Part shown: positions 7,280 to 25,518 of the stretch, piece by piece
Layout of the letters: each line of letters begins with the position of its first letter
How positions within the stretch are numbered: the stretch's first letter is position 1
Program-made: the position numbers and the translations under genes
NCBI RefSeq assembly: GCF_008119665.1
Contig: NZ_CP043046.1
Coordinates: 4,898,001 to 4,962,000, forward strand
DNA length: 64,000 bases
Source of the DNA: Pigmentiphaga aceris
Lineage (GTDB): Bacteria; Pseudomonadota; Gammaproteobacteria; Burkholderiales; Burkholderiaceae_B
Reading direction: 5' to 3'
Notes under the pieces: model-generated
What the model was told of the DNA's origin: nothing
What the model saw: only the letters and a program-made list of their open reading frames with translations
Databases searched by the model: none

Positions 7280-8380
7280 TCAAACCCCGGCCGCGCCGCC
7301 CGCCCAGCCCGGCGGGGCCAGTTGCATGATCTCGCGCGCCACGTTTGATAGCGGCACTACGCGCTCGACGCCGCCGCGACGGATGGCTTCTTTCGGCATG
7401 CCGAACACCACGCAGCTGTCTTCGTCCTGCGCCAGCGTGCGGGCACCGGCGGTGCGCATCTCCAGCAGGCCGGCGGCACCGTCGTCGCCCATGCCCGTCA
7501 TGATGATGCCAAGCGCATTCTGGCCGGCCGAGCGCGCTACCGACCGGAACAACACGTCGACCGAGGGCCGGTGGCGGTTGACCAGCGGGCCGTCGACCAC
7601 CGACACCACGTACTGGGCACCGCTGCGGCGCAGGGTCATGTGTTTACCGCCGGGGGCAATCAGCGCCCTGCCCGGCAGTACGCGATCGTTGTCCACGGCT
7701 TCGCGCACCTCGATCTCGCACAATCCGTCCAGCCGGGAGGCAAAGGCGGCGGTGAAGCGCTCGGGCATGTGCTGCACGATCACCAAACCCGGCGATACGC
7801 GTGGCAGAGAGGTCAGCACCAATTCCAGGGCCTGCGTGCCGCCTGTAGAGGTGCCCAGCGCAACCACACGTTCAGTAGTGCGGATGGTTGCCGGGCCGCT
7901 GGCTGCCGGCAGGATGGCGTCAGCAGTGAGTTTGGGTGTCGGGGTCAGCGGCAGTTCACGGCGCACGGTCTTGCTGACCCGGGCACGTGCGGCAGAACGC
8001 ACCGTAGAGATCATTTCCTGGGCGGATTCGCTCAGGAATTGCTTGAGCCCCAGCTTGGGCTTGGTGACGATGGCCACCGCACCTGCGGCTAGCGCATCGA
8101 GCGTGGTCTTGGCACCGCGCTCGGTCAGGGTCGAGCAGATGACGACCGGCGTCGGCCGTTCGTTCATGACTTTCTTCAGGAACGTAATGCCGTCCATTTT
8201 CGGCATTTCGACGTCCAGCACGATCACGTCCGGCCAGCGCAGTTTCATGCGTTCGATGGCCAGCAGCGGATCGGCCACGGCAGCGATGACTTCAAAGCCG
8301 GGTGCCTCCTTGAACATCGCCACCAGCACCTGACGCACCACTGCCGAGTCGTCGACGATCAGGACGGAAATCGGCGTCAT
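7280..8380 (-). CDS. cheB: Chemotaxis response regulator protein-glutamate methylesterase CheB
   Basis: 366 aa with an N-terminal receiver domain (acidic pair D10-D11, phospho-acceptor D56 in [13 protein letters not shown], Lys in IVTKPK at about 108) and a C-terminal methylesterase domain (catalytic Ser178 in [10 protein letters not shown], His204 in [10 protein letters not shown], Asp near 299-300 in [11 protein letters not shown]). CheB removes methyl groups from, and deamidates, receptor glutamate sites when phosphorylated by CheA. The start ATG overlaps the cheD stop by 4 nt. It is the last gene of the minus-strand chemotaxis cluster. Confidence 0.98.
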
Positions 8381-8922
8381 TGACGCTTCCTGGCCTCGGG
8401 TGCCGCGTCGCCCGTGGGCGTGACCTGCCGCACCCAGACGTCACCGTCTTTGATGTCGAACAGCACCTGCCGGTGCCCGGCACCGAACAGGTGCTCGGCG
8501 CGCACCTGAATGCCACGCGCCGCCAGCATGTTGCGCGCTGCCTCGCCGTTGTTGCGACCGATGTGGAATTCGCGCGAGGTCGGCAGCCCGCAGAACATGT
8601 CCGCACCACCGAACACCTTGGCCACGCACTGCCGTGGGTCTACGCCCTGGGCGACCAAGCCGGACCACATCAATTCCAGCGCGTCGTCACCATAACGGCC
8701 ATCGAGCGTGGCCGACGCGCGTGCACGCCGGGCCAGCAGGAAGTGCGACATGGCCCCGATCTGCCGGGCAGGATGCCACAAGGTAATGGACACGCACGAA
8801 CCCAGCAGCGTGCGAACACGAAAATCTGCACCGCCGACGAAAAACTCGCCCGGTTGCAGGAACACATCGATGGCCGACCCCGGCTTGAGCAGCGGGGTGA
8901 CATTGGAAGGAAATTTTTGCAT
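8377..8922 (-). CDS. cheD: Chemoreceptor glutamine deamidase CheD
   Basis: 181 aa from ATG 8922 (a TTG one codon upstream is also in frame). Conserved family features are [13 protein letters not shown] with the nucleophilic Cys and [11 protein letters not shown] with the catalytic His, followed by [10 protein letters not shown] and [13 protein letters not shown]. CheD deamidates specific glutamines in MCPs and in some bacteria interacts with CheC or other phosphatases. It overlaps cheB by 4 nt and lies behind cheR, the common cheR-cheD-cheB adaptation module. No cheC or cheX is in the window. Confidence 0.96.
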
Positions 8923-8997
8923 CAACGTAGATGTCAGGGCTCGCCGTCGACCCCTGTTGATGACAGTTCGGTCACAGCGACTTTCGTATATTGGGAA

Positions 8998-9807
8998 TTA
9001 CGGCTTGCGGTAGGTTGCAGGCGCGATCTGGCGTACCGCGGTGCTGATCTCGTGCAGGCTTTCGGAATGACCGATGCAGAAATAACCACCAGGGCGAAGC
9101 AGCGACAATACTCGCTCAACTACCTTGCGTTTGGTTGCCTGATCGAAGTAGATCATGACATTACGCAAAAAGATCACATCGAAGCTGCCAAGTTCGGGCA
9201 GTGTGGTATTTAAGTTCGCATGACGGAAGCTGATGCGGTCGCGCAGTTCACGTGATACGAGCACGGTTCCCTCTTGTTCCCCGATGCCTTTCAGGCAGAA
9301 ACGGCGCAGATAATCGGCCGGTACATGCATGGTCCGCTGGCGCACGAAGTGCCCGGTCTTGGCCTGTGCCACCACCCGGGTGCTGATATCCGTGCCCACC
9401 ACTTCCCAGGGGCGGTTGCCCCGGCTGTCGGCCAGCACCATGGCCATGCTGTAGGCCTCTTCCCCGGTCGAGCTGGCGGCGCTCCACACGCGGAACGGTC
9501 GACCGCCACGTGCAAGGTCATCCGCTTCAGCGGCAACCTTGCGCAGCAGGTCGAAATGCTTGGGTTCGCGGAAAAAGTAGGTTTCGTTGGTCGTCAGCAG
9601 ATCGATGGCGGTCTGGACCTCGGTCTTGTCCTTGCCATCGCGCAGCAGCGCGAAGTAGGCACCGTAATTGTCCAGATTGCGCGCGCTCAGTCGGCGCGCA
9701 AGGCGGCCGGTGACCAGCGCTTTCTTGGCCGGTGACAAGTTGATGCCAGCGGCTTCGTAGATGAAGCGCTGGAAGTCCTGGAATTCACGATCGGTGATCA
9801 TCATCAT
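8998..9807 (-). CDS. cheR: Chemotaxis protein methyltransferase CheR
   Basis: 269 aa from ATG 9807 (MMMITDREFQDFQRFIYEAA); the open frame extends to 9942 but that part overlaps the upstream gene and is not CheR-like. An N-terminal helical domain (residues about 1-75) is followed by the SAM-binding domain with VWSAASSTGEEAYSMAM, TDISTRVVAQAK, IFLRNVMIYF and FCIGHSESL. CheR methylates receptor glutamates with SAM. Only 1 nt separates it from the stop of the preceding RR-EAL gene, so the two should be co-translated. The receptor tails encoded upstream end in a FARF-type pentapeptide that could tether this CheR. Confidence 0.97.
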   Translation of the reverse strand: MMMITDREFQDFQRFIYEAAGINLSPAKKALVTGRLARRLSARNLDNYGAYFALLRDGKDKTEVQTAIDLLTTNETYFFREPKHFDLLRKVAAEADDLARGGRPFRVWSAASSTGEEAYSMAMVLADSRGNRPWEVVGTDISTRVVAQAKTGHFVRQRTMHVPADYLRRFCLKGIGEQEGTVLVSRELRDRISFRHANLNTTLPELGSFDVIFLRNVMIYFDQATKRKVVERVLSLLRPGGYFCIGHSESLHEISTAVRQIAPATYRKP

Positions 9808-9808
9808 G

Positions 9809-11158
9809 TCAGGGCCGGGTCGACGGCACACCAGCAAGCGTCGCCGTGTCGTCGGGTTGGCCTGCGGTAGAGAAGTTATAGGGAAGAGACGACGGTGCCC
9901 GACGCTCTTGGCGCAAGCTGCACAAGCGTTCGCGATGTGCATGCAACCAGGTTGGCAGGTCTTCGGCGGGCATGGGTCGCGCGATCAGATAACCCTGGCC
10001 CACGCAACAGTCGAAGGACTGCAGCAGCAACCAGTCTTCGATGGTTTCGATGCCTTCGGCCACCGTGGTCAAACCCAACTGGCGCGCCATGTCCAAGGCC
10101 GACTGCAACAGCACCCGCGAGCGTTTGCGCTGATGTGCACCGTGCACAAAAGAGCGATCGATCTTCAGTTCGGTGAACGGGATGCGTGCCAGCTGCAGCA
10201 TCGACGAAAAACCCGTGCCGTAATCATCGATCGACAGGCCGAAACCTTTCAGCCGCAAGCGCGCCAGCACGCCCAGCGACACACTCAGATGCGAGGCCAC
10301 CGAGCTTTCGGTGATCTCGAACACGATCTGCGCGGGGGCCACGCCGTATCGCTGAACCATCTCGACAATCACCGGCACCAGGTCGGCGTCATCAAGCAAA
10401 GATGGCGACAGATTGATCGACACTGACCAGCGCAGGCCACGTGCGTTCCAACCGGCCAAGCGAGCCAGCACCTGCGGAATCACGCTCAACGTCAACGGGC
10501 GGATCAGGCCGTTGGCCTCGGCCATTGGAATGAACTGATTCGGCGGGATCATGCCGTATTGCGGGTGTGTCCAGCGAGCCAGCGCTTCCAGCCCCCGGAT
10601 GATGCCGGTGCGGATATCCACTTTGGGCTGATAGTGGACGATGATGTCGCCGCTATCGATGGCCCGCCCCAGATCGACCGGGCTTACCGTGGGCAGGGCG
10701 GGCTCGGCACGAGGCACCACGGGGTAGGTCAGCGCCTCGCCGTACTCGCGCAGGGCGCGTTCCAGCCCGCCGATCTGCAAAGGCTTGCGCAGCGCACCCA
10801 GCACGTGGAAATCCATGCTGCGGGTCATGGTGGCAATCGAATCGATCAGGGCTTGCTCACGCCCCGACACGATGATCACCGGCAGACTGAACCCTTGTAC
10901 GTGCAGGTTATGGACCAGTTCAACGCCGTCCATGTCCGGCATTTCCAGGTCCAGAATCATCACGCTTGGGGTCAGCACCAGCATGGACAACAGCTCAAGC
11001 GCTTCGATGCCGTTGCCCGCTTCGTAGACCAGGTCGATCCCGGCGCGTCGGCACAGCGCGGCGGTGTGGCTGCGCTGCAGGGCCGAATCGTCGACGATCA
11101 GCACCGAATCAGGCTTGGGCGCGACACGATTCAGCATCTTGTCTGCCCCTTCCGACAT
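9809..11158 (-). CDS. Response regulator with EAL domain (probable c-di-GMP phosphodiesterase)
   Basis: 449 aa. Receiver domain at residues about 17-140 with D23-D24 and phospho-acceptor D70 (VMILDLEMPDMDG). EAL domain at about 165-425 with E191-A192-L193 in GLEALARWTHP, the SINLSP Asn, FEITES, SIDDYGTGFSS, KIDRSF, VAEGIE and GQGYLIARPM motifs, so the residues that bind metal and c-di-GMP look intact and hydrolysis of c-di-GMP to pGpG is expected. An alternative start at ATG 11137 (MLNRVAPKP) has a better ribosome-binding site (GGAAGGGG). The position between the MCPs and cheR suggests the receiver is phosphorylated by the cluster's CheA (inference), coupling receptor input to c-di-GMP level. 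Confidence 0.92.
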   Translation of the reverse strand: MSEGADKMLNRVAPKPDSVLIVDDSALQRSHTAALCRRAGIDLVYEAGNGIEALELLSMLVLTPSVMILDLEMPDMDGVELVHNLHVQGFSLPVIIVSGREQALIDSIATMTRSMDFHVLGALRKPLQIGGLERALREYGEALTYPVVPRAEPALPTVSPVDLGRAIDSGDIIVHYQPKVDIRTGIIRGLEALARWTHPQYGMIPPNQFIPMAEANGLIRPLTLSVIPQVLARLAGWNARGLRWSVSINLSPSLLDDADLVPVIVEMVQRYGVAPAQIVFEITESSVASHLSVSLGVLARLRLKGFGLSIDDYGTGFSSMLQLARIPFTELKIDRSFVHGAHQRKRSRVLLQSALDMARQLGLTTVAEGIETIEDWLLLQSFDCCVGQGYLIARPMPAEDLPTWLHAHRERLCSLRQERRAPSSLPYNFSTAGQPDDTATLAGVPSTRP

Positions 11159-11259: not shown

Positions 11260-13467
11260 TCAGAACCGGGTGAAGCGACTTTCGTCGACAGAATGATCCA
11301 GACTGACAGACGTGAGCTGCGGCTTGCGGGACTCACGCGTATCGCGTTGATCCCGTTTTACCGCCGTGCTGCGGCGCGAGATTATCGCAGCCGATTGTCC
11401 CGAAATCGTGAAGAACGACATGCTTTCTTGCAGACGTTCGGCCTGACCGCTCATCTCTTCGGCCGTGGCTGCCAGTTCTTCCGAGCTGGAGGCGTTCTGT
11501 TGGGTGGTCTGGCTCAGTTGCGTGACGGCAGAATTGATCTGGCCCACGCCCGACGATTGCTCTTCCGACGCGGCAGAAATTTCCTGCACCAAGTCAGACG
11601 TCTTGCGGATGCTGGGCACCATTTCGTCCAGCAGCTTGCCGGCGCGTTCGGCCAGGTCCACGCTGGATGAAGCCACTTCACCGATTTCCTGCGCCGCCAC
11701 CTGGCTACGTTCAGCCAGCTTGCGTACTTCGGCTGCCACCACCGCAAAGCCCTTGCCGTGTTCGCCTGCGCGGGCTGCTTCAATTGCTGCATTCAATGCC
11801 AGCAGATTGGTCTGGTAAGCGATGTCATCAATGATCGAGATCTTCTTGGCGATCTGCTTCATGGCAGCCACCGTGGCCTTCACCGCTTCACCGCCTTCAG
11901 CGGCTTCGCTCGACGCCTTCGACGCCATGCCATCCGTAACCCTGGCGTTCTCAGTATTCTGCGCAATCGATGACGTCATCTGTTCCAGCGACACACTGGT
12001 TTCTTCCACACCGGCGGCTTGTTCGCTGGCGGCCTGCGACAGCGATTGGGCGGTTGCACTGACCTGCTCGGAAGCACCTGCCAGAGCATGCGCACCAGCG
12101 TTGACCTCTGCCACGACCGACGACAGCTTCTCGGCGGTGCTGTTGACGTAGCCCTTCATTTCATCGAAGGAGCCTTGATAGGCCTTGTCGATCCGTTTGG
12201 TCAGATCGCCTTCCGACATGGCCGCCATGACGCGCACCACATCGTTCAGGCTGTTGCCGATGGTAATGACCAGCTGGTTCAGTCCCTCGCCCATTTCTTT
12301 CTGGAAGCCTTGCATGCCGGCCAGATCGACACGCGAACTGAATTCACCCTGGTTGGCGGCCAGCACCAGGCTGCGCTGGCCAACGATCAGGCGGTCGAGC
12401 TTTTCGGCCGTGCTGTTCACATAGCCTTTCATCTCGTCGAACGCGCCTTCATAGGTCTTGTCGATGCGCTTGTCCAGATCGCCGGCTGACATGGCACCCA
12501 TGACCCGCACCACGTCGTTCAGGCTTGCGCCAACGGTCGTGACCAGCTGATTCAGCCCCTCACCCATTTCCTTCTGGAAGCCCTGCAGGCCCGCCAACTC
12601 GACACGTGAGTCGAAATTGCCACGATTGGCTGCAGACACCAGCGCGCGTTGGCCGCTGATCACCTGATTCAGACGCGACACCATTTCCTTGACTGCCGCC
12701 AGCATGCTGGTGGTATCGCCCTGGGCGGTGATGACTTCGGTGCTCAGGTCGCCGTTGGCCACGCGACGCAGTTGTTCAGCGGCGTAATCAGGCTCGCCAC
12801 CCAACTGACGCAAGATGCTGCGCGTGACCAGGAACGCGGCGGCAATCGCCACCAATGCGGCGGCGATACCCATGCCGATCATCAAGCTTCGCGCGAACTG
12901 ATAACTGCTTTCTGCTTCAGCGACACTCTCGCGATTCTGTGTGGCTTCGTGTTCCACCAGTGCATCGATCTGACCGCGCAACACCACGCCCTGGGGGGTG
13001 TACTCCTCACGCAATACCACTGTGCCTTGATCGTTCAGGTTCTTCAACGCGAGATCAGAGACGCGATCAAGCACAGTGAAGAGCTTGCGACTGCCGTCAC
13101 GGACTTGCGCCAGCATGTCGCGTTCAACAGCGCTCGTGGTCGGATCGGCCGCGAAGATGGCGCTCATGTCCTCGATCGATTTTTCGAAATTGCGGCGCAA
13201 CACCAATCCCGCTTCGACTTCTCGCTGAATCACCAGTGGGTCGGTATTCAGCAGCTGGGATCGAACATTTCCCCCGAAGGCGTAATACGTCGACTTCATG
13301 TTCTGGCTATGCTGGATCAACACGTTGTTGACCCCGGTGATATAGCGCAAGCCGCTTTGCAAGTCCTGCATGCGCAGCACAGCCAACACAATGACAGCAG
13401 CAAAAATCAACAAGACGATGCCAAAGGCTGTCGCCAGACGCGTGCCGACTTTCATGTTCGTGAACAT
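11260..13467 (-). CDS. Methyl-accepting chemotaxis protein 1, about five HAMP-like units
   Basis: 735 aa from ATG 13467 ([15 protein letters not shown]); the frame opens earlier at 13500 but the other receptors start at the MF(A/K/T)xMKV motif. TM1 at about 10-32, periplasmic four-helix-bundle-type sensor 33-190, TM2 about 193-216. Then come HAMP-like units marked by GDL/GNF/GEF turns at residues about 239, 283, 329, 374 and 420. The signalling domain is about 450-690 with the highly conserved tip [20 protein letters not shown]. The C-terminus is DESRFTRF. It detects an unknown periplasmic ligand and controls CheA with CheW. Its lower HAMP units and signalling domain are nearly the same as in MCP4. 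Confidence 0.95.
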
Positions 13468-13618
13468 ACTGGGGGTCCCACTTTTTTTTAAGCACCGCAA
13501 CGGCGGAAAAACATTAACTATCTAAGATTGGTCATTGCTGACCATGGTTCGGAAAACGGGAAGAAGCGACGACGTGCTCGCCAGACTTGCGTCGCTGCGA
13601 ATAGGTCACAGACAGCAT

Positions 13619-15547
13619 TCAAAAACGTGCGAAGTTCGCCTCGTCAACATGCGAGTCACCCACCAATGACATCTCACGGCGGCGTGCAACCGGGGTGGGT
13701 GCCGCACGCAACGGTGCGCGACGGGAGGCTGCCACGACAGGCGCAGCCGGTGATGCAACCGTGAAGAACGACATGGTCTGCTGCAGGCGCTCGGCTTGGC
13801 CGCTCATCTCTTCGGCAGTGGCTGCCAGCTCTTCCGAGCTGGATGCGTTTTGCTGGGTGGTCTGGCTCAGTTGCGTGACAGCGGAATTGATCTGCACCAC
13901 GCCCGAAGACTGCTCTTCCGAAGCAGCAGAAATCTCCTGCACCAGGTCGGAAGTTTTACGGATGCTGGGCACGATTTCATCGAGCAGCTTGCCCGCGCGT
14001 TCAGCCAGATCCACGCTGGAAGACGCCACTTCACCGATTTCCTGTGCAGCGATCTGGCTGCGTTCGGCCAGCTTGCGCACTTCCGCTGCCACCACCGCAA
14101 AGCCCTTGCCGTGTTCGCCGGCGCGGGCTGCTTCAATCGCCGCGTTCAAGGCCAGCAGATTGGTCTGATAAGCGATGTCATCGATGATGGTGATCTTCTT
14201 GGCGATCTGCTTCATCGCCGACACGGTTGCCTTGACAGCCTCACCGCCTTCAGTCGCCTCGTTGGAAGCCTTGGACGCCATGCCATCGGTCACGCGGGCG
14301 TTCTCGGTGTTCTGGGCAATCGATGAGGTCATCTGTTCCAGCGATGCGCTGGTCTCTTCCACGCCAGCCGCTTGTTCGCTGGCGGCTTGCGACATGGATT
14401 GTGCGGTTGCACTGACTTCATCGGATGCACCGGCCAATGCCTGCGCACCGGCGTTGACCTCTGCCACGACCGACGACAGCTTTTCAGCAGTGCTGTTGAT
14501 GTAGCCCTTCATTTCGTCAAAGGAGCCTTCATAACGCTTGTCGATCCGCTGGGTCAGGTCACCCTCGGACATGGCTGCCATGACGCGCCCCACGTCGGTC
14601 AGGCTGTCACTCACCGTGGTGGTCAGCTGGTTCAGGCCCTGCCCCATGTCTTTCTGGAAGCCTTGAAGCCCGTTCAGATCAACTTGTTTGGTGAAGTCAC
14701 CCTGGTTTGCAGCTTCGACAACAACACGCTGACCATCGATCACCTGTTTCAGTCGGGCAACCATGTTCTTGACTGCCACCAGCATGCTGCTGGTGTCGTT
14801 GGGCTTGATCTGGATGTCGACATTCAAGTCGCCGTTGGCCACGCGATCAAGCACCGCCGCCGCGTAGTCAGGCTCACCACCCAGTTGACGCAGCATGCTG
14901 CGCGTCACCATCAGACCGGCCACAATCGCAATCAAGAATGCCGCCACACCCGTGCCGATCAGCAAGGCGCGGGCGAAATGGAAGCTCTCCGTCGCTTCGG
15001 CTACGGCCAGCTTGTTGTCGTTTTCTTCGTACTTCAGAAACTCTTCAAGCTTGTCTTGCAAGGCGGTGTTGGGTTGATTGAATTCGTCGCGCAGAATGTC
15101 GATCGCCTGCGCTTGCTGGCCCGCTTTCTGTGCGGCAGCAACGCGTGCACCAGCTGCGCTGAGCTTGGTCGCCTCGGCGCGCATCTGCTCAACCATTCGA
15201 CGCTCGGTGTCAGTAGAAGTCGGATCGTCCGACAGGATCTTGGCGAGCGCGTCGATCGACGTGTCGACAACGCCCTTGCGTTGATTCAGTCGGGCCTGTG
15301 CGGCGTCCAACTCAGCACTGTCTGCCGACAGCAGCAGACGCCGCGTACTCGCCGAGATGCCCGTCGTTGCCGAAATGGCCCGCTGTGCGTGCGAAACCAT
15401 CACATTGTTGACTTCATTGATGTAGGTGATCCGGTCTTGCTGTGCCTGCAGACGCAGCACAGACACCACCACGATGACGAGTAGCAAGACCAGCACGGTT
15501 GCAAACGCAATCGCCAGACGGGTCCCTACTTTCATGCCTTTGAACAT
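13619..15547 (-). CDS. Methyl-accepting chemotaxis protein 2, about three HAMP-like units
   Basis: 642 aa from ATG 15547 ([15 protein letters not shown]). TM1 about 10-32, four-helix-bundle-type periplasmic domain 33-190, TM2 about 193-215 and a first HAMP-like unit after it ([20 protein letters not shown]). Further units have the turns NQGDF (about 291-295) and MSEGDL (about 326-331). The signalling domain from about 360 matches the neighbouring receptors except for scattered substitutions. The C-terminus is DEANFARF. The sensor shares the first residues and general pattern with MCP1 but differs in sequence, so it probably senses a different ligand. A terminator lies between it and MCP3 upstream. 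Confidence 0.95.
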   Translation of the reverse strand: MFKGMKVGTRLAIAFATVLVLLLVIVVVSVLRLQAQQDRITYINEVNNVMVSHAQRAISATTGISASTRRLLLSADSAELDAAQARLNQRKGVVDTSIDALAKILSDDPTSTDTERRMVEQMRAEATKLSAAGARVAAAQKAGQQAQAIDILRDEFNQPNTALQDKLEEFLKYEENDNKLAVAEATESFHFARALLIGTGVAAFLIAIVAGLMVTRSMLRQLGGEPDYAAAVLDRVANGDLNVDIQIKPNDTSSMLVAVKNMVARLKQVIDGQRVVVEAANQGDFTKQVDLNGLQGFQKDMGQGLNQLTTTVSDSLTDVGRVMAAMSEGDLTQRIDKRYEGSFDEMKGYINSTAEKLSSVVAEVNAGAQALAGASDEVSATAQSMSQAASEQAAGVEETSASLEQMTSSIAQNTENARVTDGMASKASNEATEGGEAVKATVSAMKQIAKKITIIDDIAYQTNLLALNAAIEAARAGEHGKGFAVVAAEVRKLAERSQIAAQEIGEVASSSVDLAERAGKLLDEIVPSIRKTSDLVQEISAASEEQSSGVVQINSAVTQLSQTTQQNASSSEELAATAEEMSGQAERLQQTMSFFTVASPAAPVVAASRRAPLRAAPTPVARRREMSLVGDSHVDEANFARF

Positions 15548-15597
15548 ATGTATTCCAATCGCCATCACCGCGTAACGCGGTCTACCAAAACATTAAG

Positions 15598-15625
15598 AAA
15601 AAAGTGCCGGCCGTGACCGGCACTT
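15598..15625 (-). terminator. Intrinsic terminator inside the chemotaxis cluster (between MCP3 and MCP2)
   Basis: On the minus strand the 9-bp stem AAGTGCCGG/CCGGCACTT with a 6-nt loop runs straight into TTTTTTCTT. It stands about 20 bp past the MCP3 stop and about 50 bp ahead of the MCP2 start, so it should reduce transcription of MCP2, MCP1, RR-EAL, cheR, cheD and cheB relative to cheA and cheW. Confidence 0.75.
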
Positions 15626-15645
15626 GTCAAACCGCTTGAACGGAT

Positions 15646-17697
15646 TTAGAAACGGGCAAACAAGGATTCATCGACAGCGTCATCGATCTGGGCCGTCTGA
15701 CGACGGGCCACCACGACCGGCTTGACGGCACGGAGGTTGCGGGAGGATTCGCCACGCAAGGCCGGCTTGCGCAACTCGGCCACGGTATTGAGTCGGAAGA
15801 AGGCCATGGTTTCCTGTAGACGTTCGGCCTGACCGCTCATCTCTTCGGCCGTGGCTGCCAGTTCTTCCGAGCTGGAGGCGTTCTGCTGCGTGGTCTGGCT
15901 TAGTTGCGTGACGGCGGAATTGATCTGGCCCACGCCCGACGATTGCTCTTCCGACGCGGCAGAAATTTCCTGCACCAGGTCAGACGTTTTACGGATGCTA
16001 GGCACCATTTCGTCCAGCAGCTTGCCAGCGCGTTCAGCCAGGTCCACGCTGGACGACGCCACTTCACCGATTTCCTGCGCGGCCACCTGGCTGCGCTCGG
16101 CCAGCTTGCGTACTTCCGCTGCCACCACCGCAAAGCCCTTGCCGTGTTCGCCTGCGCGCGCTGCTTCAATTGCTGCATTCAGCGCCAACAAGTTGGTCTG
16201 ATAAGCGATGTCATCAATGATCGAGATCTTCTTCGCGATCTGCTTCATGGCCGCCACCGTGGCCTTCACGGCTTCACCGCCTTCGGCCGCTTCGCTCGAC
16301 GCCTTGGACGCCATGCCATCGGTAACCTTGGCGTTCTCGGTATTCTGCGCAATCGATGCCGTCATCTGCTCCAGCGATGCGCTGGTTTCTTCCACACCGG
16401 CGGCTTGTTCGCTGGCGGCTTGCGACAAGGATTGCGCCGTTGCGCTGACTTCTTCCGATGCGCCGGACAGTGCTTGCGCACCGGCGTTGACCTCGGTGAC
16501 GACCTGCGAAAGCTTGGCCACGGTATCGTTCACGTAGGTCTTCATCTCGCCGAACGAGCCTTCGTACGACTGGGTGATGTTCTTGGTCAGATCGCCATCG
16601 GCCATGGCACCCATGACACGCACCACATCATTGATGCTGTTGCCGGTGGTGGACACCAGGCTGTTCAGCCCCTCGCCCATTTCCTTCTGGAAACCTTGCA
16701 GGCCATTCAGGTCGACACGGTCCTGGAAGTTGCCGGCGTTTGCGGCTGCCACCACGCGACGCTGTCCATCGATCACCTGACCAAGCTTGGCCACAGTGTT
16801 GTTGACGTAGTCGCGCATTTCACCAAACGAACCCTGGTAAGGCTTGTCGATGGTCTGCGTCAGGTCACCACGCGCCATTGCGCCCACCGAGCGCACCACA
16901 TCGTTGATGCTTTCGCCGGCAGAAGTCACCATCTGCCGTGTCGTGTACAGCAGGCTGCTGGTATCGCCAGGACGCACCGCCACATCGACCGTGAAGTCGC
17001 CCACCGCCACGCGCCGCATCACGTCTGCCGCGTAGGACGGCTCGCCGCCCAGCACCTTGGCAAAGTTGCGCGTGATCAGGAAACCCAGTGCGCATGCGAT
17101 CAATACCGCACAGATCGCCAGACCGATCAGCCAGGCACGGGTCTGGTCGTACAGCACGTCGCCAGACTGCCGGGCGTTTTCGATCAGCTCTTCCTGGAAG
17201 CGCACCATCGCCGCAGCGGCAGCGCGCTGGGCAAGCTGGCTGGGCAGGAAGTCCGAGTTCATGTACTCGATGGCCTGAACCTTGTCCGTGCGCGAGATTT
17301 CAAGCAGCCGCTGATAACGCGAGCCCGTCGCGGCGCGGGTGTCTTCCATCTGCTTGAACAACTCCCTGCCGCGAGGAAGCGTCAGCAAGGCAGAAAGCTG
17401 TTTCATCAGCTCGCCATTGCGTGCACGGTTTTCCATCAGCCGTGCCCAGATTTCATTGGCGTCGGTCTGGTTTGTAGCAAGCAGGAACTGGCCGACGAAG
17501 CGCCCGTTGTCGATCGTGCCCTTGTCGATGTTGTTGGCGAGCACCAACCTGGGATAGATCACATTGGCGATGGCAACCGTCGTTTCGTTGACCGCAGCCA
17601 GACGAAACACGGCAAGCACGGCAACGACCAGCAGCAGCAGGATGACCACGCCGAAACTGGACGCAAGCCGGGTTGAGACCTTCATGTTCGCGAACAT
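15646..17697 (-). CDS. Methyl-accepting chemotaxis protein 3, about four HAMP-like units
   Basis: 683 aa from ATG 17697 ([17 protein letters not shown]). TM1 about 10-30, four-helix-bundle-type sensor to about 185, TM2 just before the [20 protein letters not shown] segment that begins the first HAMP-like unit. Further units have the turns ARGDL, NAGNF and ADGDL. The signalling domain has the standard tip and the C-terminus is DESLFARF. The stretch from GEPxYAADVM through [14 protein letters not shown] is almost the same as in MCP4, while the last HAMP unit ([20 protein letters not shown]) is its own. It is followed on the minus strand by an intrinsic terminator. Confidence 0.95.
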
Positions 17698-17774
17698 AAC
17701 TTCCTTGTTAACCGATGCACTGGCAATCGGTCTTAATCAGTGACGTGGTCGACCCGGACAACGGGAGGGAAAAA

Positions 17775-20105
17775 TCAGAAACGTGCAAACTCGGATTCAT
17801 CGATATCGTTGCTGGCGTATGCTGGCTGACGACGCTCGATGGATGGTGCAAGGGGTTTTGCCAGACTGTTCGAACGGTTACTTGCCTTGCCGCTGGCCCT
17901 GCGGGAGATCATTGGAGCCCCTGCCAACTTGAAGAACGCCATGGTCTCTTGCAGACGTTCGGCCTGACCGCTCATCTCTTCGGCCGTGGCCGCCAGTTCT
18001 TCCGAGCTGGACGCGTTTTGCTGCGTGGTCTGGCTCAGTTGCGTGACGGCGGAATTGATCTGCGCAACGCCTGACGACTGCTCTTCCGAGGCAGCAGAAA
18101 TTTCCTGCACCAGGTCAGACGTCTTGCGGATGCTGGGCACCATTTCGTCCAGCAGCTTGCCGGCGCGTTCGGCCAGGTCCACGCTGGAAGATGCCACTTC
18201 ACCGATTTCCTGCGCAGCTACCTGGCTGCGCTCAGCCAGCTTGCGCACTTCCGCTGCCACCACCGCAAAGCCCTTGCCGTGTTCGCCGGCGCGGGCTGCT
18301 TCGATGGCAGCATTCAGTGCCAGCAAGTTGGTCTGATAAGCGATGTCATCGATGATCGAAATTTTCTTTGCGATCTGCTTCATCGCAGCCACCGTGGCCT
18401 TCACGGCTTCGCCGCCTTCGGCTGCTTCGCTAGACGCCTTGGATGCCATGCCGTCAGTGACTTTCGCGTTTTCGGTGTTCTGCGCAATCGACGCCGTCAT
18501 CTGTTCCAGCGATGCACTGGTTTCTTCCACACCGGCAGCTTGTTCACTTGCTGCGTGGGAAAGCGATTGCGCGGTTGCGCTGACTTCTTCCGACGCGCCC
18601 GCCAACGAGTGCGCACCGGCGTTGACTTCAGCCACAACCGTGGACAGCTTCTCTGCCGTGCTGTTCACGTAGCCCTTCATTTCATCGAAGGAGCCTTGAT
18701 AGGCCTTGTCGATCCGTTTGGTCAGATCGCCTTCCGACATGGCGGCCATGACGCGCACCACATCGTTCAGGCTTGCGCCCACGGTGGTGACCAACTGATT
18801 CAGGCCCTCGCCCATTTCTTTCTGGAAGCCTTGCATGCCGGTCAGTTCGACACGCGAACTGAAGTCACCCTGGTTGGCAGCCAGCACCAGACTGCGCTGG
18901 CCAACGATCAGGCGGTCGAGCTTTTCGGCCGTGCTGTTCACATAGCCCTTCATCTCATCGAACGCACCTTCGTAGGTCTTCTCGATACGCTTGTCCAGAT
19001 CACCCGCCGACATGGCACCCATCACCCGCACCACGTCACTCAGGCTTGCGCCGACCGTGGTGGCCAATTGGTTCAAGCCCTCGCCCATTTCCTTCTGGAA
19101 GCCTTGCAGGCCATTCAGATCGACCCGGTCCTGGAAGTTGCCGGCGTTTGCTGCTGCCACCACGCGACGCTGTCCGTCGATGACCTGATTCAGCTTGGAC
19201 ACGGTGTTGTTGACGTAGTCGCGCATCTCACCAAAAGAACCCTGGTAAGGCTTGTCGATGGTCTGCGTCAGGTCACCGCGCGCCATTGCTCCTACCGAGC
19301 GCACCACATCGTTGATGCTTTCGCCGGCCGAGGTCACCATCTGTCGTGTCGTGTACAGCAAACTGCTGGTATCACCAGGACGCACCGCGACATCGACCGT
19401 GAAGTCGCCCACTGCCACACGTTTCATCACGTCTGCGGCGTAAGCTGGCTCACCGCCCAGCACGCGCGAGAAGTAACGCACCAACAAGAAAGCGAGTGCG
19501 ATGGCGATGAGAATGGCTGCGGCCGACAAACTGGCAATCAAGTTACGCGTCGAGGTATAGACCTGGTGAATATTGTCTCGACCTGCATCCATCTGTGCAG
19601 CCTGGAAGTTGGTGAAATCGCGCAAGGCGGCGATATACGCCAGATTGGCGGGAACAACCTCGGCATACAGATAATCACGCGCCTGCGTCTTGTCAACGGC
19701 ATTGGCTGTGTACACCTTGTCGTAGGCAACACCCAGGGCCTCTCGCCGAAGGTGGATGACCTTCAGCAGCTCTCGGCCCCGATCTTTGTTCACCATGGTT
19801 TCGAGAACGTTCAGGCGCTCGATATTGCGCGCGCGGTTTTCGTTCAAGATTTTCCAGACGGCATCGGCCTCGACCTTGTCACGCGCCAGAACCAAGTTGC
19901 GAATACTGCGGCTGTCCTCAGCCAATGACTCGGCGATTTCGTTGCCCAGCTTCACGCGTGGATAGACCTCACCCGTGATGATGCTCGCCGCCTCGTTGAC
20001 ATCGGAGAGCCGGACCATGCTGAGGCCTCCGATGAGCAGCAGCAATATGACCACCACGCCAAAGCTCAATGCCTGTCGGGTTGCCACTTTCATATTCGCA
20101 AACAT
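17775..20105 (-). CDS. Methyl-accepting chemotaxis protein 4, about six HAMP-like units (mosaic)
   Basis: 776 aa, the longest of the set, from ATG 20105 ([17 protein letters not shown]). TM1 about 12-32, periplasmic sensor 33-188, TM2 about 190-212. HAMP-like turns lie near residues 233 (VGDF), 277 (RGDL), 322 (AGNF), 368 (AGDL), 413 (QGDF) and 459 (EGDL). Residues about 216-345 are almost the same as in MCP3; from about 350 on the sequence follows MCP1, which suggests a recombinant of the two. Signalling domain about 490-735; C-terminus DESEFARF. Its sensor resembles that of MCP3 in layout ([10 protein letters not shown] versus [10 protein letters not shown]) but not in detail. Confidence 0.95.
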
Positions 20106-20188
20106 GATTTCCTTTTTTGCCAGCCTGCGCTGGTCACTCTTATATTTTTACGAACTGAACTACTGACGAAACTACGAACGATCGCAAG

Positions 20189-21844
20189 TTAAAAGCGGGC
20201 GAACTGCGATTCGTCCACATCATCAGCCGCATAGCCGACCTGACGACGCGGTGCTGCTGTTGAGATCACAGGTTGCTTGGCAACACGCGCAGGACGCGGC
20301 ACCTCACGCACAGCCGTTCTGCGCGGCTCGGTGGCACCGGCCAGCTTGAAGAAGGACATGGTTTCCTGCAGGCGTTCGGCCTGACCGCTCATCTCTTCGG
20401 CCGTGGCCGCCAGCTCTTCCGAGCTGGATGCGTTCTGCTGCGTGGTCTGGCTCAGCTGACCCACTGCGGCGTTGATCTGTGCAACGCCCGCCGACTGCTC
20501 TTCCGAGGCTGCCGAAATTTCCTGCACCAAGTCGGACGTCTTGCGGATGCTGGGCACCATTTCGTCCAGCAGCTTGCCCGCGCGTTCAGCCAGGTCCACG
20601 CTGGACGACGCCACTTCACCGATTTCCTGTGCAGCGATCTGGCTGCGTTCGGCCAGCTTGCGCACTTCCGCTGCCACCACCGCAAAGCCCTTGCCGTGTT
20701 CGCCGGCGCGGGCTGCTTCAATGGCGGCATTCAGTGCCAACAAGTTGGTCTGATAAGCAATGTCGTCGATGATCGAAATCTTTTTCGCGATCTGCTTCAT
20801 GGCCGAAACCGTGGAGCGCACGGCCTCGCCACCTTCGGAAGCTTCGCTGGCTGCCTTGGCTGCCATGCCATCGGTGACCTTGGCGTTCTCCGTGTTCTGC
20901 GCAATAGACGCCGTCATCTGTTCCAGCGATGCGCTGGTTTCTTCCACACCCGCAGCTTGTTCGCTGGCGGCTTGCGACAAGGATTGTGCGGTTGCGCTGA
21001 CTTCTTCCGATGCCCCTGCCAGCGAATGTGCACCGGCATTGACTTCGGACACCACCGTCGACAGGCGGCCGACCATGTTCTGCATTGCGCCCAGCAATTG
21101 CGCGGTTTCGTCTTTGCCGCTGACCTGAATCTGCATGCTCAGATCCCCCTGGGCCAGACTGTCGGCGACTTCTGCGGCACGACGCAGGGGACGCGAAATG
21201 CTGCGACTGATCAGCAAGCCAAGGCCCACACCGACAAGAAGCGCGGCGGCAATGATCGCAATCATCGTGGTGCGGCTGTTCTGGTAGATGCTTTCGGTCT
21301 GCTCGCTGGCAGCCTTTGCGTTCACGCGCTTGAGCTCTTCAAGTTCGCCCAGCGCGGCGTCCATGACGTTGGCGTGCTGACGCACCGCATCGAGCAGACG
21401 CACCAGTTCGGGCGGACGCGATGCCAGGGGCTCGGCAGCCGCCATGGCCAAGGCGTTGGTCATGTCGCGTTGGTAATCGTCCCAGGTGTTGTCGATCTGG
21501 GTGAACAGCGCGCGGGCACGATCGGTGACGAAGCGGGTACGCGCCTGGTCGAAGTTCTCGCGGGCGGCGGTCGAGGAACGCTTGATCGACGCCTGATGAC
21601 GATCACGCTCTTCCTGGGTAGTGGCCAGCAGGAAGTTGGCGCGCGCGCGGCCGATCTCGACCACGTTCATGTTGGCTTCCTTGATATAGGAAACCCCCAG
21701 CAATTCCCGGTTGTACATCTGTGCAGCGAGATCGTTCATCTCGCGCGTGTTCATCAAACCGACCACACCGACGACAGCGCTCAGGGATGCAACGACGACA
21801 AAGGCAATAACAAGACGAGTACCGATCTTGAAGTTCGATAGCAT
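20189..21844 (-). CDS. Methyl-accepting chemotaxis protein 5, single HAMP
   Basis: 551 aa from ATG 21844 ([15 protein letters not shown]), preceded by AGGAGCG; a longer open frame to 21898 overlaps cheW and lacks support. TM1 about 10-30, four-helix-bundle MCP-type periplasmic domain 31-190 with the [16 protein letters not shown] opening typical of that class, TM2 about 193-213 and one conventional HAMP ([20 protein letters not shown] then GDLSMQIQV). The signalling domain matches MCP1-4; C-terminus DESQFARF. With the Tar/Tsr-like layout it is the simplest receptor and the one next to cheW; the poly-HAMP receptors may derive from another lineage that shares its signalling domain through gene conversion (inference). 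Confidence 0.95.
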
Positions 21845-21872
21845 GACAAGCGCTCCTAGGGGGTTGCCGTCT

Positions 21873-22397
21873 TTAGACGGTCGCGTCCGCGCTGGCATCG
21901 ACCAGGGCGGCTAATTCATCGATCGAGAAGACCTGGTCGACGTCGAGCAAGATGACGAATTTCTCGTCGACCTTGCCGATGCCGCGAATGAAATCAGAAC
22001 GAATGCGTGCACCGAAAGCCGGGGCAGACGCGATGGCGTCGTCCGCGATTTCCAGCACTTCATTGACTGCATCGACCAGCACGCCCACTACCTGGCGGCC
22101 ATGTGCGGTGCTGAGTTCAACGATGACGATGCAGGTGCGTTTGCCGACCTGGCTGGCCGAGCGGCCAAAGCGTGCCTGCAAGTCCAGCACCGGGACGACT
22201 GCACCGCGCAGGTTGAGCACGCCGCGCACACACTCGGGCATCAACGGAACCGTGGTCAGGTTGCGGAATTCGATGATTTCCTTGATCGACAGAATGTCGA
22301 TGGCGAAAACTTCGTCGCCCAGCAGGAAGGTCAGGAACTGTGCCGGCTCAGCGGCGACGGCCACGGGGGCCAACTGGCGTGAGGCGTTGGTGTTCAT
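21873..22397 (-). CDS. cheW: Chemotaxis coupling protein CheW
   Basis: 174 aa, a single CheW domain: [20 protein letters not shown], then [20 protein letters not shown] and a C-terminal strand pair ending near FSIDELAAL. CheW bridges receptors to CheA in the membrane-associated array. AGGAAC precedes the ATG. It lies between cheA and the first of the tandem MCPs, and is the only cheW in the window although six receptors are encoded. Confidence 0.97.
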
Positions 22398-22439: not shown

Positions 22440-24650
22440 TCAGGCCGTCAACGGATGGCGGGCGCGGTCGGCGGTGGCCTGGGCAGCAGCCCGTTCCATC
22501 AGCACGGGCACGTCGAGAATCAGTACGACTTCACCGCTGCCGCTGATGCTCGATCCGCTGATGCCGCGGATCTGGCTGAACAGGCGGCCAAGCGGTTTGA
22601 TCACCGTCTGGAATTCACCCAGCAAGGTGTCCACGACCAGACCGACCTTGCGGCCGGCATGACGTACCACCACGATGTTCTCCCGCCCTTCAGGCGAACC
22701 ACCCAGCGAGAACAAGTCGCGCACGCGCATGAAGGGCAGGACTTCGCCGCGCAGGTTGGTGTAGTCGTGGCCGGGTTCGGCCGAGAACTCCACGCACTCG
22801 TCGATCATGTCCAGCGGCACCACGAACACCGATTTGCCTACGGTGACCTGGAAGCCGTTGATGATTGCCAGCGTCAGGGGCAGACGCACGGTGACCGTGG
22901 TGCCCTGACCGGGTTCGCTGGCCACCGACACCGAGCCACGCAGTTCGGCGATGTTGCGCTTGACCACATCCATGCCCACACCACGGCCGGACAGGTTGGT
23001 GACGGCAGCAGCGGTGGAGAACCCCGGCTCGAAGATCAGTGCATAGATTTCGCCGTCGCTCAGATGGCGACCCGGCTCGACCAGACCACGCTCGACAGCT
23101 TTTTCCAGAATGCGGTCGCGCTGCAGACCGCCGCCGTCGTCGCCGACTTCGATCACGATTGCGCCGGAATCATGGAAGGCGTTCAGGCGGACCGTGCCAC
23201 GTGCCGGTTTGCCGCGCGCAGCGCGCAGTTCGGCGGACTCGATGCCGTGGTCCATGGCGTTGCGAACCAGGTGCGTCAGCGGATCGGCAATGCGTTCCAC
23301 CACGGTCTTGTCCAGCTCGGCATCTTCGCCGCTGACTTTCAGTTCGATGTCTTTACCCAGTTCGCGGGCCACATCGTGCACCACGCGCTGGAATCGGCTG
23401 AAGGTGCCGCCGATCTTCACCATGCGCAGTTGCAAGGTGCTGTCGCGCACGGCCTCGACCAAACCAGCCAGCGCGGAATGGGTTTCCTGCAACTCGGAGT
23501 CGTTGACGCGGCGTGCCGCCAGCTGCGCGCCGGAAGCCATGATGATCAACTCGCCGACCAGATCGATCAGGTGATCGAGCTTGTCTGCATCGATACGGAT
23601 CGACGGGCTTTCCCGGCTCTTGGTTTCCTGCCCTTTGTTTTCCTGACCCTTGGTTTCCTGGCTCTTGGATTCGCGTGCCGACTGCAGCACCGCGTTCAAC
23701 GCAGCATCGATCTGCGTATCGGCGGGCAACGCGTCAACCGGCGCGGACACGTCCACAGCTACTGCATCCGCCGAATCCCCCAGCAATGCAGCGTTCAGTA
23801 CCTCTGCATCGACCGCGCCGCACAGGCTCAGCGCCTCGACCAATCGCGCCTGCGTTTCGGGCAGACGCTCCACCAAGGCAACGTAGTCGTTCAAGCCACG
23901 TTTGGGCGGCAACAGATGCAATACGCAGTCGTCTTGCACGAACTCGAACACGCTCTCGATCGTGGCGCGATCGGCCTCGGTGCGGAACACGATCTCGAAG
24001 CCCAGATAGCATTGCTCCGGGTCCATCTGGTCGGCCTCGGGCAAGGCGTCAGCCAGCGGCACGATGGCGGTTATCGTGCCCAGCGTACCCAGATAGCGAA
24101 TGAAGGACAGCGGGTCCATGCCGTTGCGCAGCACTTCCGTGCCGAAACGCAAGGAGATGTGCCAGGTGCCGTCATCGATCAGATCGGCATTCGCGTCAGC
24201 GTCAATGTTCGAATCGACAGCCGTGACCACAGCTTGCGCAGCCGGTGCGGCCTCGGCAACCAGATAGGTCTGCAGTTGCGCCAGCAGCGGCTCGCCTTGG
24301 GCAGTCAGTTCAGGATCGGGGTCGGTGCGACCGGCTGCGATCAGGGCAACCATTGCGCCGATGTGATCGCCGCAGGCCAGCAACAGCGCAACCAGCGAAT
24401 CGTCGATGGCCAGATTGCCTGCGCGCACATCGTCGAGCACGCTTTCCACGACGTGGGTGAAGCTGACAAGATGGTCCAGACCAAACAGGCCCGCAGATCC
24501 TTTGACGGTGTGCGCGGCGCGGAAAATGGCATTGACCCGTTCGCTGCTGTCGTCGGCGTCACGGCCCAGCGACAGCAGGGCGGCTTCCATGTCTTCCAGC
24601 AGTTCGCGGCTTTCGACAATGAAGGTCTGAAGAGCGTCGTCGAGGTTCAT
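22440..24650 (-). CDS. cheA: Chemotaxis histidine kinase CheA
   Basis: 736 aa. P1 phosphotransfer domain 1-105 with phospho-accepting His47 (RAAHTVKGSAGLFGL); a P2-like regulator-binding domain about 160-255; a linker with a 5-residue repeat (about 328-346, QETKG/QENKG/QETKS); P3 dimerisation helices about 350-405; P4 kinase domain about 405-590 with HLVRNAMDHGIE, DDGGGL and GRGVGMDVVKRNI; P5 CheW-like domain about 595-725. It autophosphorylates and passes phosphate to CheY and CheB, and possibly to the RR-EAL protein. Its start overlaps the STAS gene by 4 nt, so the two should be co-translated. Confidence 0.97.
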   Translation of the reverse strand: MNLDDALQTFIVESRELLEDMEAALLSLGRDADDSSERVNAIFRAAHTVKGSAGLFGLDHLVSFTHVVESVLDDVRAGNLAIDDSLVALLLACGDHIGAMVALIAAGRTDPDPELTAQGEPLLAQLQTYLVAEAAPAAQAVVTAVDSNIDADANADLIDDGTWHISLRFGTEVLRNGMDPLSFIRYLGTLGTITAIVPLADALPEADQMDPEQCYLGFEIVFRTEADRATIESVFEFVQDDCVLHLLPPKRGLNDYVALVERLPETQARLVEALSLCGAVDAEVLNAALLGDSADAVAVDVSAPVDALPADTQIDAALNAVLQSARESKSQETKGQENKGQETKSRESPSIRIDADKLDHLIDLVGELIIMASGAQLAARRVNDSELQETHSALAGLVEAVRDSTLQLRMVKIGGTFSRFQRVVHDVARELGKDIELKVSGEDAELDKTVVERIADPLTHLVRNAMDHGIESAELRAARGKPARGTVRLNAFHDSGAIVIEVGDDGGGLQRDRILEKAVERGLVEPGRHLSDGEIYALIFEPGFSTAAAVTNLSGRGVGMDVVKRNIAELRGSVSVASEPGQGTTVTVRLPLTLAIINGFQVTVGKSVFVVPLDMIDECVEFSAEPGHDYTNLRGEVLPFMRVRDLFSLGGSPEGRENIVVVRHAGRKVGLVVDTLLGEFQTVIKPLGRLFSQIRGISGSSISGSGEVVLILDVPVLMERAAAQATADRARHPLTA
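23619..23672 (-). repeat. 15-bp tandem repeat in the cheA P2-P3 linker
   Basis: Three full 15-bp units (CTTGGTTTCCTGCCC and two variants, plus-strand reading) plus a partial fourth encode the Q-E-(T/N)-K-(G/S) peptide repeat of CheA. Unit length is a multiple of three, so copy-number change would keep the frame. Confidence 0.85.
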
Positions 24651-25035: not shown

Positions 25036-25404
25036 TCAGGGAAGGACGAGCTTTTCCACAGCGGCCAGCAGTTGAGCGGGCTGGAAAGGCTTGACGATCC
25101 ATGCCTTGGCACCCGCTTGCTGGCCTTCCCGCTTCTTTTCTTCCTGGCTTTCCGTGGTCAGCATCACGACTGGCGTGAACTTGTAGGCCGGCAGTTGCTT
25201 GACTGCCTTGACGAAGCTGATGCCGTCCATGTTGGGCATGTTCACGTCGCTGATGATCAGGTGAACGCGCTGACCCGTCAGCTTGCTGAGCCCGACTGCG
25301 CCATCGCTGCCCTCGATCACGTCGTAACCGGCGCCGCGCAAGGTGATGCCGACGACCTGTCGAACCGATGCCGAGTCATCGACGATCAAGATAGTTTTTG
25401 CCAT
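25036..25404 (-). CDS. cheY: CheY-like single-domain response regulator
   Basis: 122 aa from ATG 25404 (MAKTILIVDDSASVRQVVG); a longer open frame to 25512 runs through hairpin DNA and is not family-like. A lone receiver domain with the acidic D9-D10 pair, phospho-acceptor Asp in LIISDVNMPNMDG, a Thr in MLTTES and Lys in WIVKPFQP. There is no output domain, so it should act by binding a target such as the flagellar switch. It lies immediately ahead of the STAS-cheA-cheW genes, the usual place for the cognate CheY. No CheZ phosphatase gene is nearby. Confidence 0.93.
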   Translation of the reverse strand: MAKTILIVDDSASVRQVVGITLRGAGYDVIEGSDGAVGLSKLTGQRVHLIISDVNMPNMDGISFVKAVKQLPAYKFTPVVMLTTESQEEKKREGQQAGAKAWIVKPFQPAQLLAAVEKLVLP

Positions 25405-25447
25405 GTCCGTTCCAAAAAAATACTTGCGGCATCCCACCCGCGCCACC

Positions 25448-25518
25448 AGTCTGGCTATAGCCAGACTTGGCGACTTGAGCTGCTGCAGGCAGCAGCCCGG
25501 GCGACGATGCACGCATCG
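25448..25518. repeat. Three successive palindromes between the short MCP gene and cheY
   Basis: A perfect 20-bp palindrome (25448-25467, AGTCTGGCTATAGCCAGACT), an 8-bp-arm hairpin with 2-nt centre (25479-25496) and a 6-bp-arm hairpin (25505-25518) fill most of the 124-bp gap. No T-run follows directly. They could serve as mRNA-processing or attenuation structures. Confidence 0.6.

Follow-up and report, generated by a model that had tools for sequence, protein, structure and literature searches.

Five chemoreceptor genes lie in tandem in a chemotaxis (che) cluster of Pigmentiphaga aceris, within the 64,000-nucleotide stretch of contig NZ_CP043046.1 (positions 4,898,001 to 4,962,000) that we refer to as the window. 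The five open reading frames (ORFs), R1 to R5, run on the minus strand between a response regulator with an EAL domain and CheW/CheA, and their products carry 5, 3, 4, 6, and 1 HAMP units in the stalk, respectively. We label the unit beside the membrane M and the two kinds that alternate after it D and C. The receptors probably share one plan and origin, in which a four-helix-bundle (4HB) periplasmic sensor is followed by an M-type HAMP, by n DC dyads of 91 residues, and by an output domain of the 34H length class, the stalks reading M(DC)n or M-C(DC)n. All five score 129–135 bits with PF00015 (cut-off 34.6), which identifies them as methyl-accepting chemotaxis proteins (MCPs), and all five exceed the cut-off of the sensor model PF12729 (4HB_MCP_1).

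HAMP units of three kinds

Units were counted from anchored turn motifs and with hidden Markov models (HMMs) that were seeded from the window's own units and later trained from relatives. Both give the numbers stated above, which a first-pass annotation of the window had already arrived at, and the HMMs read the stalks as MDCDC (R1), MDC (R2), MCDC (R3), MCDCDC (R4), and M (R5). The units repeat at steps of 44–46 residues, in keeping with the period of about 45 that had been claimed; the turn motif claimed with it, GD(L/F) or GNF, fails once, since the pattern G[DN][LF] detects four turns in R1 and the fifth is GEF. The HAMP profile search proposed as a check yields these numbers with our own HMMs but not with Pfam alone. 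Since the Pfam models miss some of the units, we base the count on the regular period, our HMMs, and the predicted stalk of R4: PF00672 (HAMP) marks 2, 2, 3, 4, and 1 stretches in R1–R5, and PF18947 (HAMP_2) marks 2, 1, 2, and 3 in R1–R4, the number of C units in each, with a single stretch below cut-off in R5 (E 0.14).

The 19 units of the window form three identity sets. M units stand first in every stalk and contain GGEPxYA in R1–R4; the R5 unit is 22–29% identical to the other first units and was typed M by its position and HMM. D units contain AANxG[NDE]F and QGFQK and are 60–93% identical to one another, which excludes chance, and C units contain GDL and Y.G.F.EM.

Sequence and predicted structure support the identification of the repeated units as HAMPs. 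In a comparison with the PDB, a dyad profile finds 3vol, a di-HAMP of Aer2, at E 3.5e-21 and 9trk, a HAMP structure of a histidine kinase, at E 2.3e-11. Independently of our HMMs, the R4 stalk as modelled by AlphaFold shows helices separated by exactly six non-helical connectors, and Foldseek finds three matches to the model with E below 0.01 (1.8e-3 to 5.8e-3, none at 0.001), all of them Aer2 poly-HAMP crystal structures (4i3m, 4i44, and 3lnr), ahead of a next match at E 0.17; structure prediction, also proposed as a check, thus agrees with the count. The spacing, the six connectors, and the two profile matches conform to a divergent poly-HAMP, taken here as two helices joined by a connector in which glycine and hydrophobic positions are conserved, about 45–50 residues in all and stacked in chains. 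Passages of PMC3570549 describe the divergent type as having no DExG motif at the junction between the connector and AS2 (the second amphipathic helix), and inspection by eye finds none in the D and C units of the window. A coiled-coil spacer with GD turns, in place of HAMP folds, would account for the units that Pfam's HAMP models pass over and for the modest confidence of the R4 model, but it is hardly credible in view of the sequence match to HAMP structures of Aer2 and a histidine kinase, and of six helix-connector-helix motifs whose best structural matches are all Aer2 poly-HAMPs.

Stalk length changes mostly by whole dyads

At E 1e-15 the dyad profile matches 98 of the 399 genomes sampled from the order; at E 1e-25 it is found in 2 of 268 genomes of the own family and 47 of 392 of another. 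We read the order of units in 97 loci (the window, L137, L039–L066, and L138–L204, with L195 yielding no receptor), which yielded 128 unique receptors starting with M, the window's five included. Their architectures are M (42), MDC (56), MDCDC (16), MDCDCDC (1), MDCDCDCDC (2), and M(DC)5 (4), with MC (3), MCDC (2), MCDCDC (1), and MDCCDC (1) making up the remainder. The successions are strongly constrained: DC occurs 125 times, MD 80, CD 45, MC 6, CC once, and DD never. D is followed by C in 125 of 125 cases, the last unit is C in all 86 poly-HAMP stalks, and the spacing is 46 residues from D to C (123 of 125) and 45 from C to D (44 of 45). Poly-HAMP stalks have odd unit numbers in 79 cases and even numbers in seven, two of which are R3 and R4. 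Because D always leads to C and the end is always C, stalk length changes mostly by whole dyads, and there are two founding states, M-D and M-C.

A difference also appears in the first unit. A DE pair stands at the M-unit connector in 38 of 42 single-HAMP receptors versus 32 of 86 poly-HAMP receptors (Fisher p 4e-9, only indicative, as this is a crude motif search on non-independent rows); in the window the pair is DE in R5 and DT in R1–R4. The contrast fits an altered coupling of the first HAMP once a chain follows.

Some stalks of the wider family stand apart. The longest found belong to receptor frames of 970–1342 amino acids in L191, L202, L203, and L204, with 11 HAMP units called. Two Aquabacterium loci hold an extra receptor of about 740 amino acids (L046:11261 and L065:11265); the unit HMMs give low scores to its stalk, which probably contains diverged HAMP units left uncounted. 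The MDCCDC receptor could reveal the effect of a single-unit step.

A recombinant stalk and rare steps in length

The six-unit stalk of R4 is a recombinant, with an R3-like MCD front and an R1-like CDC back. In sliding comparisons R4 is 89–94% identical to R3 in nucleotides over residues 241–330, the first three units, and 82–98% identical to R1 over residues 331–480, the last three, falling to 78% in the next 30-codon window. The test for recombination used the one dyad in which R3, R4, and R1 compare in register (85 informative sites); the maximum chi-square, 43.9, marks the point, near codon 346 of R4, at which resemblance to R3 gives way to resemblance to R1, and none of 10,000 shuffles reached this value. 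Among relatives, the MDCDC receptors of L143, L149, and L156 nest among MDC receptors with sensors 59–68% identical to theirs, and their two dyads, 84–90% alike in nucleotides, look as they would after duplication within the gene. Four other MDCDC receptors (L042, L043, L166, and L176) also sit among MDC receptors (sensors 64–73% identical, compared with L058, L060, L061, and L063), with dyads only 73–74% alike.

Related che loci hold series of 1-3, 1-2-3, and 1-3-5 units, so a graded set is not special to this locus; the first-pass annotation had called it unusual. Of 78 distinct receptor series, window included, 33 combine single-HAMP with poly-HAMP receptors, and 31 of these contain the three-unit MDC receptor. 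Four series plus the window extend to MDCDC; five receptors are found only in the window, the other 77 series holding at most four. When architecture is mapped on a tree of 127 sensor domains, which has many long branches and was assessed by the Shimodaira–Hasegawa-like approximate likelihood ratio test (SH-aLRT) only, 26 changes are needed versus 60.7 in shuffles. It therefore seems that each receptor slot has retained its number of units for long periods, and a locus whose unit numbers are largely fixed by receptor is no fast generator of length. The first-pass annotation had taken it for a locus that generates stalk lengths and had named unit numbers fixed receptor by receptor in relatives as evidence to the contrary; the relatives come close to that, and its wording is too strong. 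What stands of the idea is that R4 arose by recombination between neighbour-like stalks, set among otherwise rare dyad steps; the annotation's suggestions that length could set gain, invert the signal, or sort receptors into arrays are conjectural.

One relative, L137, is a che cluster on the 509 kb Xanthomonas sacchari plasmid NZ_CP010410.1, with three receptors, CheA, CheW, an EAL response regulator, CheR, and CheB, and a STAS-domain protein in front of CheA.

A constant output end behind divergent sensors

The signalling domains of R1–R5 are 89–95% identical in amino acids (84–89% in nucleotides), and the distance from the turn of the last unit to the tip is 149 residues in all five, which bears out the annotation's claim of nearly the same signalling domain throughout. 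Their sensor domains share 25–39% pairwise identity. In a tree of 63 rows the five signalling domains fall on one side of a branch as a single clade (SH-aLRT 98), and paralogues also form a clade in L137 (95), L165 (98), L183 (99), and L059 (86). On the sensor tree, R5 and R3/R4 have their nearer neighbours among receptors of other genera, with modest support, and the R3 and R4 sensors form a group with the MC receptor from a Rhodoferax bin (SH-aLRT 90). The trees thus support the view that the signalling domains have been kept alike while the sensors are far apart, and gene conversion of the output end is the simplest reading.

Each arm of the R4 signalling domain is seven residues, or one heptad, shorter than in the 36H receptor Tsr, which places R4 in the 34H class, and R1–R5 have arms of equal length. 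Of 46 signalling-domain matches in the genome, six belong to the window, and 30 of the other 40 were aligned; 28 of the 30 have 21 residues more per arm (40H), and two could not be classed. Elsewhere in the genome, seven MCP matches lie on one strand within 13 kb (C1:294335-307495), all 40H by arm length.

What stalk length may do

A model can be outlined from these data. D would pair with D and C with C, so that when exchange is unequal, whether it takes place between paralogues or inside one gene, dyads are gained or lost as wholes and the order of relays stays intact at any length. All five receptors would report to the CheA/CheW of their own cluster, different sensors feeding the same CheA through stalks with differing numbers of relay pairs. 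Each dyad may transmit the signal with its sign kept, as expected if HAMP conformers alternate; for Aer2, passages of PMC3570549 describe units alternating between oppositely signalling conformers. Physically, n would act mainly on the distance from membrane to baseplate, at about 3.5 nm per unit (35 Å per HAMP is the figure in the relevant passages of PMC6628036). In Pseudomonas syringae the F8 array, to which 34H receptors are assigned, is given as 20 nm high versus 23 nm for F6 (PMC11253619, in part). Arithmetic on these published numbers, assuming one HAMP in the 20 nm receptor, gives expected heights of about 20 nm for R5, 27 for R2, 30.5 for R3, 34 for R1, and 37.5 for R4. If unequal heights cannot share a lattice, one system would form several arrays, or the long receptors would bend. 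Sorting by height in the cell is a tentative idea and on balance doubtful. The full scheme is unlikely: a single CheA/CheW would run five heights (about 20–37.5 nm) and two HAMP phases, stalk length and phase, built from exchangeable dyads, would sort receptors into tiers or arrays or set the sign, and gene conversion would keep the tip uniform.

Several observations weigh against the plan of HAMP dyads on a homogenised output end. Pfam models alone do not yield 5/3/4/6/1, and the unit HMMs were seeded from the window. Confidence in the R4 stalk model is low (mean predicted local distance difference test, pLDDT, 67.8; predicted template modelling score, pTM, 0.33), because a monomer was modelled of a dimeric fold, and the receptors are known here from sequence and this one predicted stalk. 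The stalk of L183:10138 (MDCCDC), the only one with two consecutive C units, breaks the alternation. In relatives, the number of units in a given receptor mostly stays the same, with length change rare. Signalling domains are not grouped by genome in L039, L041, L046, L047, L065, and L138, so homogenisation is not general. The window's sensor domains have weakly supported positions on long branches, so recent duplication of whole genes with fast divergence of the sensors is a possible alternative to gene conversion.

A serious rival to any functional account is that stalk length is a neutral by-product, which we find quite possible without favouring it. Dyads would be gained and lost in register, length would matter little provided that C comes last in the chain, and the series would reflect drift and homology rather than design. 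As in-register exchange alone yields whole dyads, the grammar needs no selection on length; the recombinant stalk of R4 and the wide range of lengths in the family, where as many as 11 units are called in a receptor, also suit this account. The recurrence of 1-3 and 1-3-5 orders in relatives speaks against it, as does the adherence of architecture to the sensor tree, although shared ancestry alone would give this too. Another reading turns on phase instead of length. By analogy with the alternating Aer2 conformers (PMC3570549, in part), stalks in which C follows M (R3 and R4, even) and stalks in which D or the signalling domain itself comes next after M (R1, R2, and R5, odd) might signal with opposite signs, so that receptors of both signs would act on one output. 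The rarity of even counts and the grouping of the R3/R4 sensors with the Rhodoferax MC receptor are in its favour, but the sensor and the M unit may set the sign, and even-count receptors have lasted as a lineage; we consider such a code improbable.

The locus and its other genes

Coordinates of all features are collected in Table 1. The ORF of CheR overlaps the next gene, so its true start is probably further in. The CheA dimerisation domain has two matches in the genome, one of which is the window's CheA. In the profile search of window proteins R6, a further MCP-like protein, has neither a HAMP nor a sensor-domain match; MCP ORFs of about 380–450 amino acids without HAMP recur, like R6, near many related loci.

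Table 1. Features of the receptor locus (window positions)
Feature	Position	Strand	Remarks
CheB	7280..8380	-	
CheD	8377..8925	-	
CheR	8998..9942	-	ORF overlaps next gene
Response regulator with EAL domain	9809..11158	-	
R1	11260..13500	-	transmembrane MCP, 4HB sensor, stalk MDCDC (5 HAMP)
R1 unit 1	12667..12798	-	type M
R1 unit 2	12535..12666	-	type D
R1 unit 3	12397..12528	-	type C
R1 unit 4	12262..12393	-	type D (GEF turn)
R1 unit 5	12124..12255	-	type C
R2	13619..15568	-	MCP, stalk MDC (3 HAMP)
R2 unit 1	14747..14878	-	type M
R2 unit 2	14615..14746	-	type D
R2 unit 3	14477..14608	-	type C
R3	15646..17697	-	MCP, stalk MCDC (4 HAMP)
R3 unit 1	16915..17046	-	type M
R3 unit 2	16783..16914	-	type C
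R3 unit 3	16648..16779	-	type D
R3 unit 4	16510..16641	-	type C
R4	17775..20105	-	MCP, stalk MCDCDC (6 HAMP), recombinant stalk
R4 unit 1	19323..19454	-	type M
R4 unit 2	19191..19322	-	type C
R4 unit 3	19056..19187	-	type D
R4 unit 4	18918..19049	-	type C
R4 unit 5	18783..18914	-	type D
R4 unit 6	18645..18776	-	type C
Estimated R4 recombination breakpoint (codon 346)	19068..19070	-	R3-like before, R1-like after
R5	20189..21898	-	MCP, single HAMP (M); inner ATG at codon 19 would give end 21844 of the first-pass annotation
R5 unit 1	21062..21193	-	type M (only HAMP)
CheW	21873..22397	-	
CheA	22440..24650	-	
CheY-like receiver protein	25036..25512	-	
R6	25529..26725	-	MCP-like, 398 amino acids, beside cheY

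Relation to known receptor systems

Chemoreceptors are taken to mix with members of their own length class alone, length usually being expressed as the number of heptads in the signalling domain. A geometric study covers a range of 0 to 2 HAMPs and assumes uniform length, as receptors of unequal length segregate into separate arrays (PMC6628036, in the passages on geometry). Here the five receptors have signalling domains of one length and differ, by as many as five units, in the HAMP stack alone. The locus thus pulls apart the two senses of length and offers a natural test of the length rule for receptor arrays, which raises its interest above the ordinary. If the tip decides, R5 and R4 would mix; if distance from the membrane decides, they would stay apart. 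The locus is also a clean case of a modular stalk with steps of two relays, and so bears on whether a HAMP pair keeps the sign.

Poly-HAMP chains, di-HAMPs, and alternating HAMP conformers are already known; in the open-access literature, no paper came to light that describes transmembrane receptors of graded stalk length arranged in tandem within a single che cluster. One close likeness is to Aer2 (McpB) of Pseudomonas aeruginosa (3lnr, 4i3m, 4i44, and 3vol), whose di-HAMP is homologous by sequence and similar in predicted fold. However, Aer2 is soluble, with a PAS-haem domain and three plus two HAMPs as outlined in PMC7184735, and has a 36H output, whereas the window's receptors are transmembrane, with a 4HB sensor, a 34H output, and a variable number of dyads. 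Membership of R1–R5 in the Aer2 family was rejected, given scores of 226–308 bits with the NCBIfam Aer2 model (cut-off 1200) and the 4HB sensor; the domain-profile search lists no PAS match for R1–R5.

By 34H length and gene content only, the window resembles the F8 system of Pseudomonas syringae, whose receptor PSPTO_0912 is likewise encoded inside a che cluster. According to the portion of PMC11253619 that treats it, PSPTO_0912 has a C-terminal pentapeptide, and its modelled and imaged height is 20 nm; R1–R5 end, by eye, in xFxRF, and there are five 34H receptors here against one in P. syringae. Chains of divergent HAMP repeats also occur in Bos1, a class III hybrid histidine kinase of Botrytis with six repeats (PMC3418262, in part), and 9trk, which matches the dyad profile, is a histidine kinase fused to Gcn4p; both differ in being histidine kinases without a chemoreceptor output. 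Further counterparts are the che loci of Massilia, Telluria, Herbaspirillum, Aquabacterium, and the Xanthomonas sacchari plasmid, which hold the same receptor family, the plasmid locus having the same kind of gene set, including the EAL response regulator.

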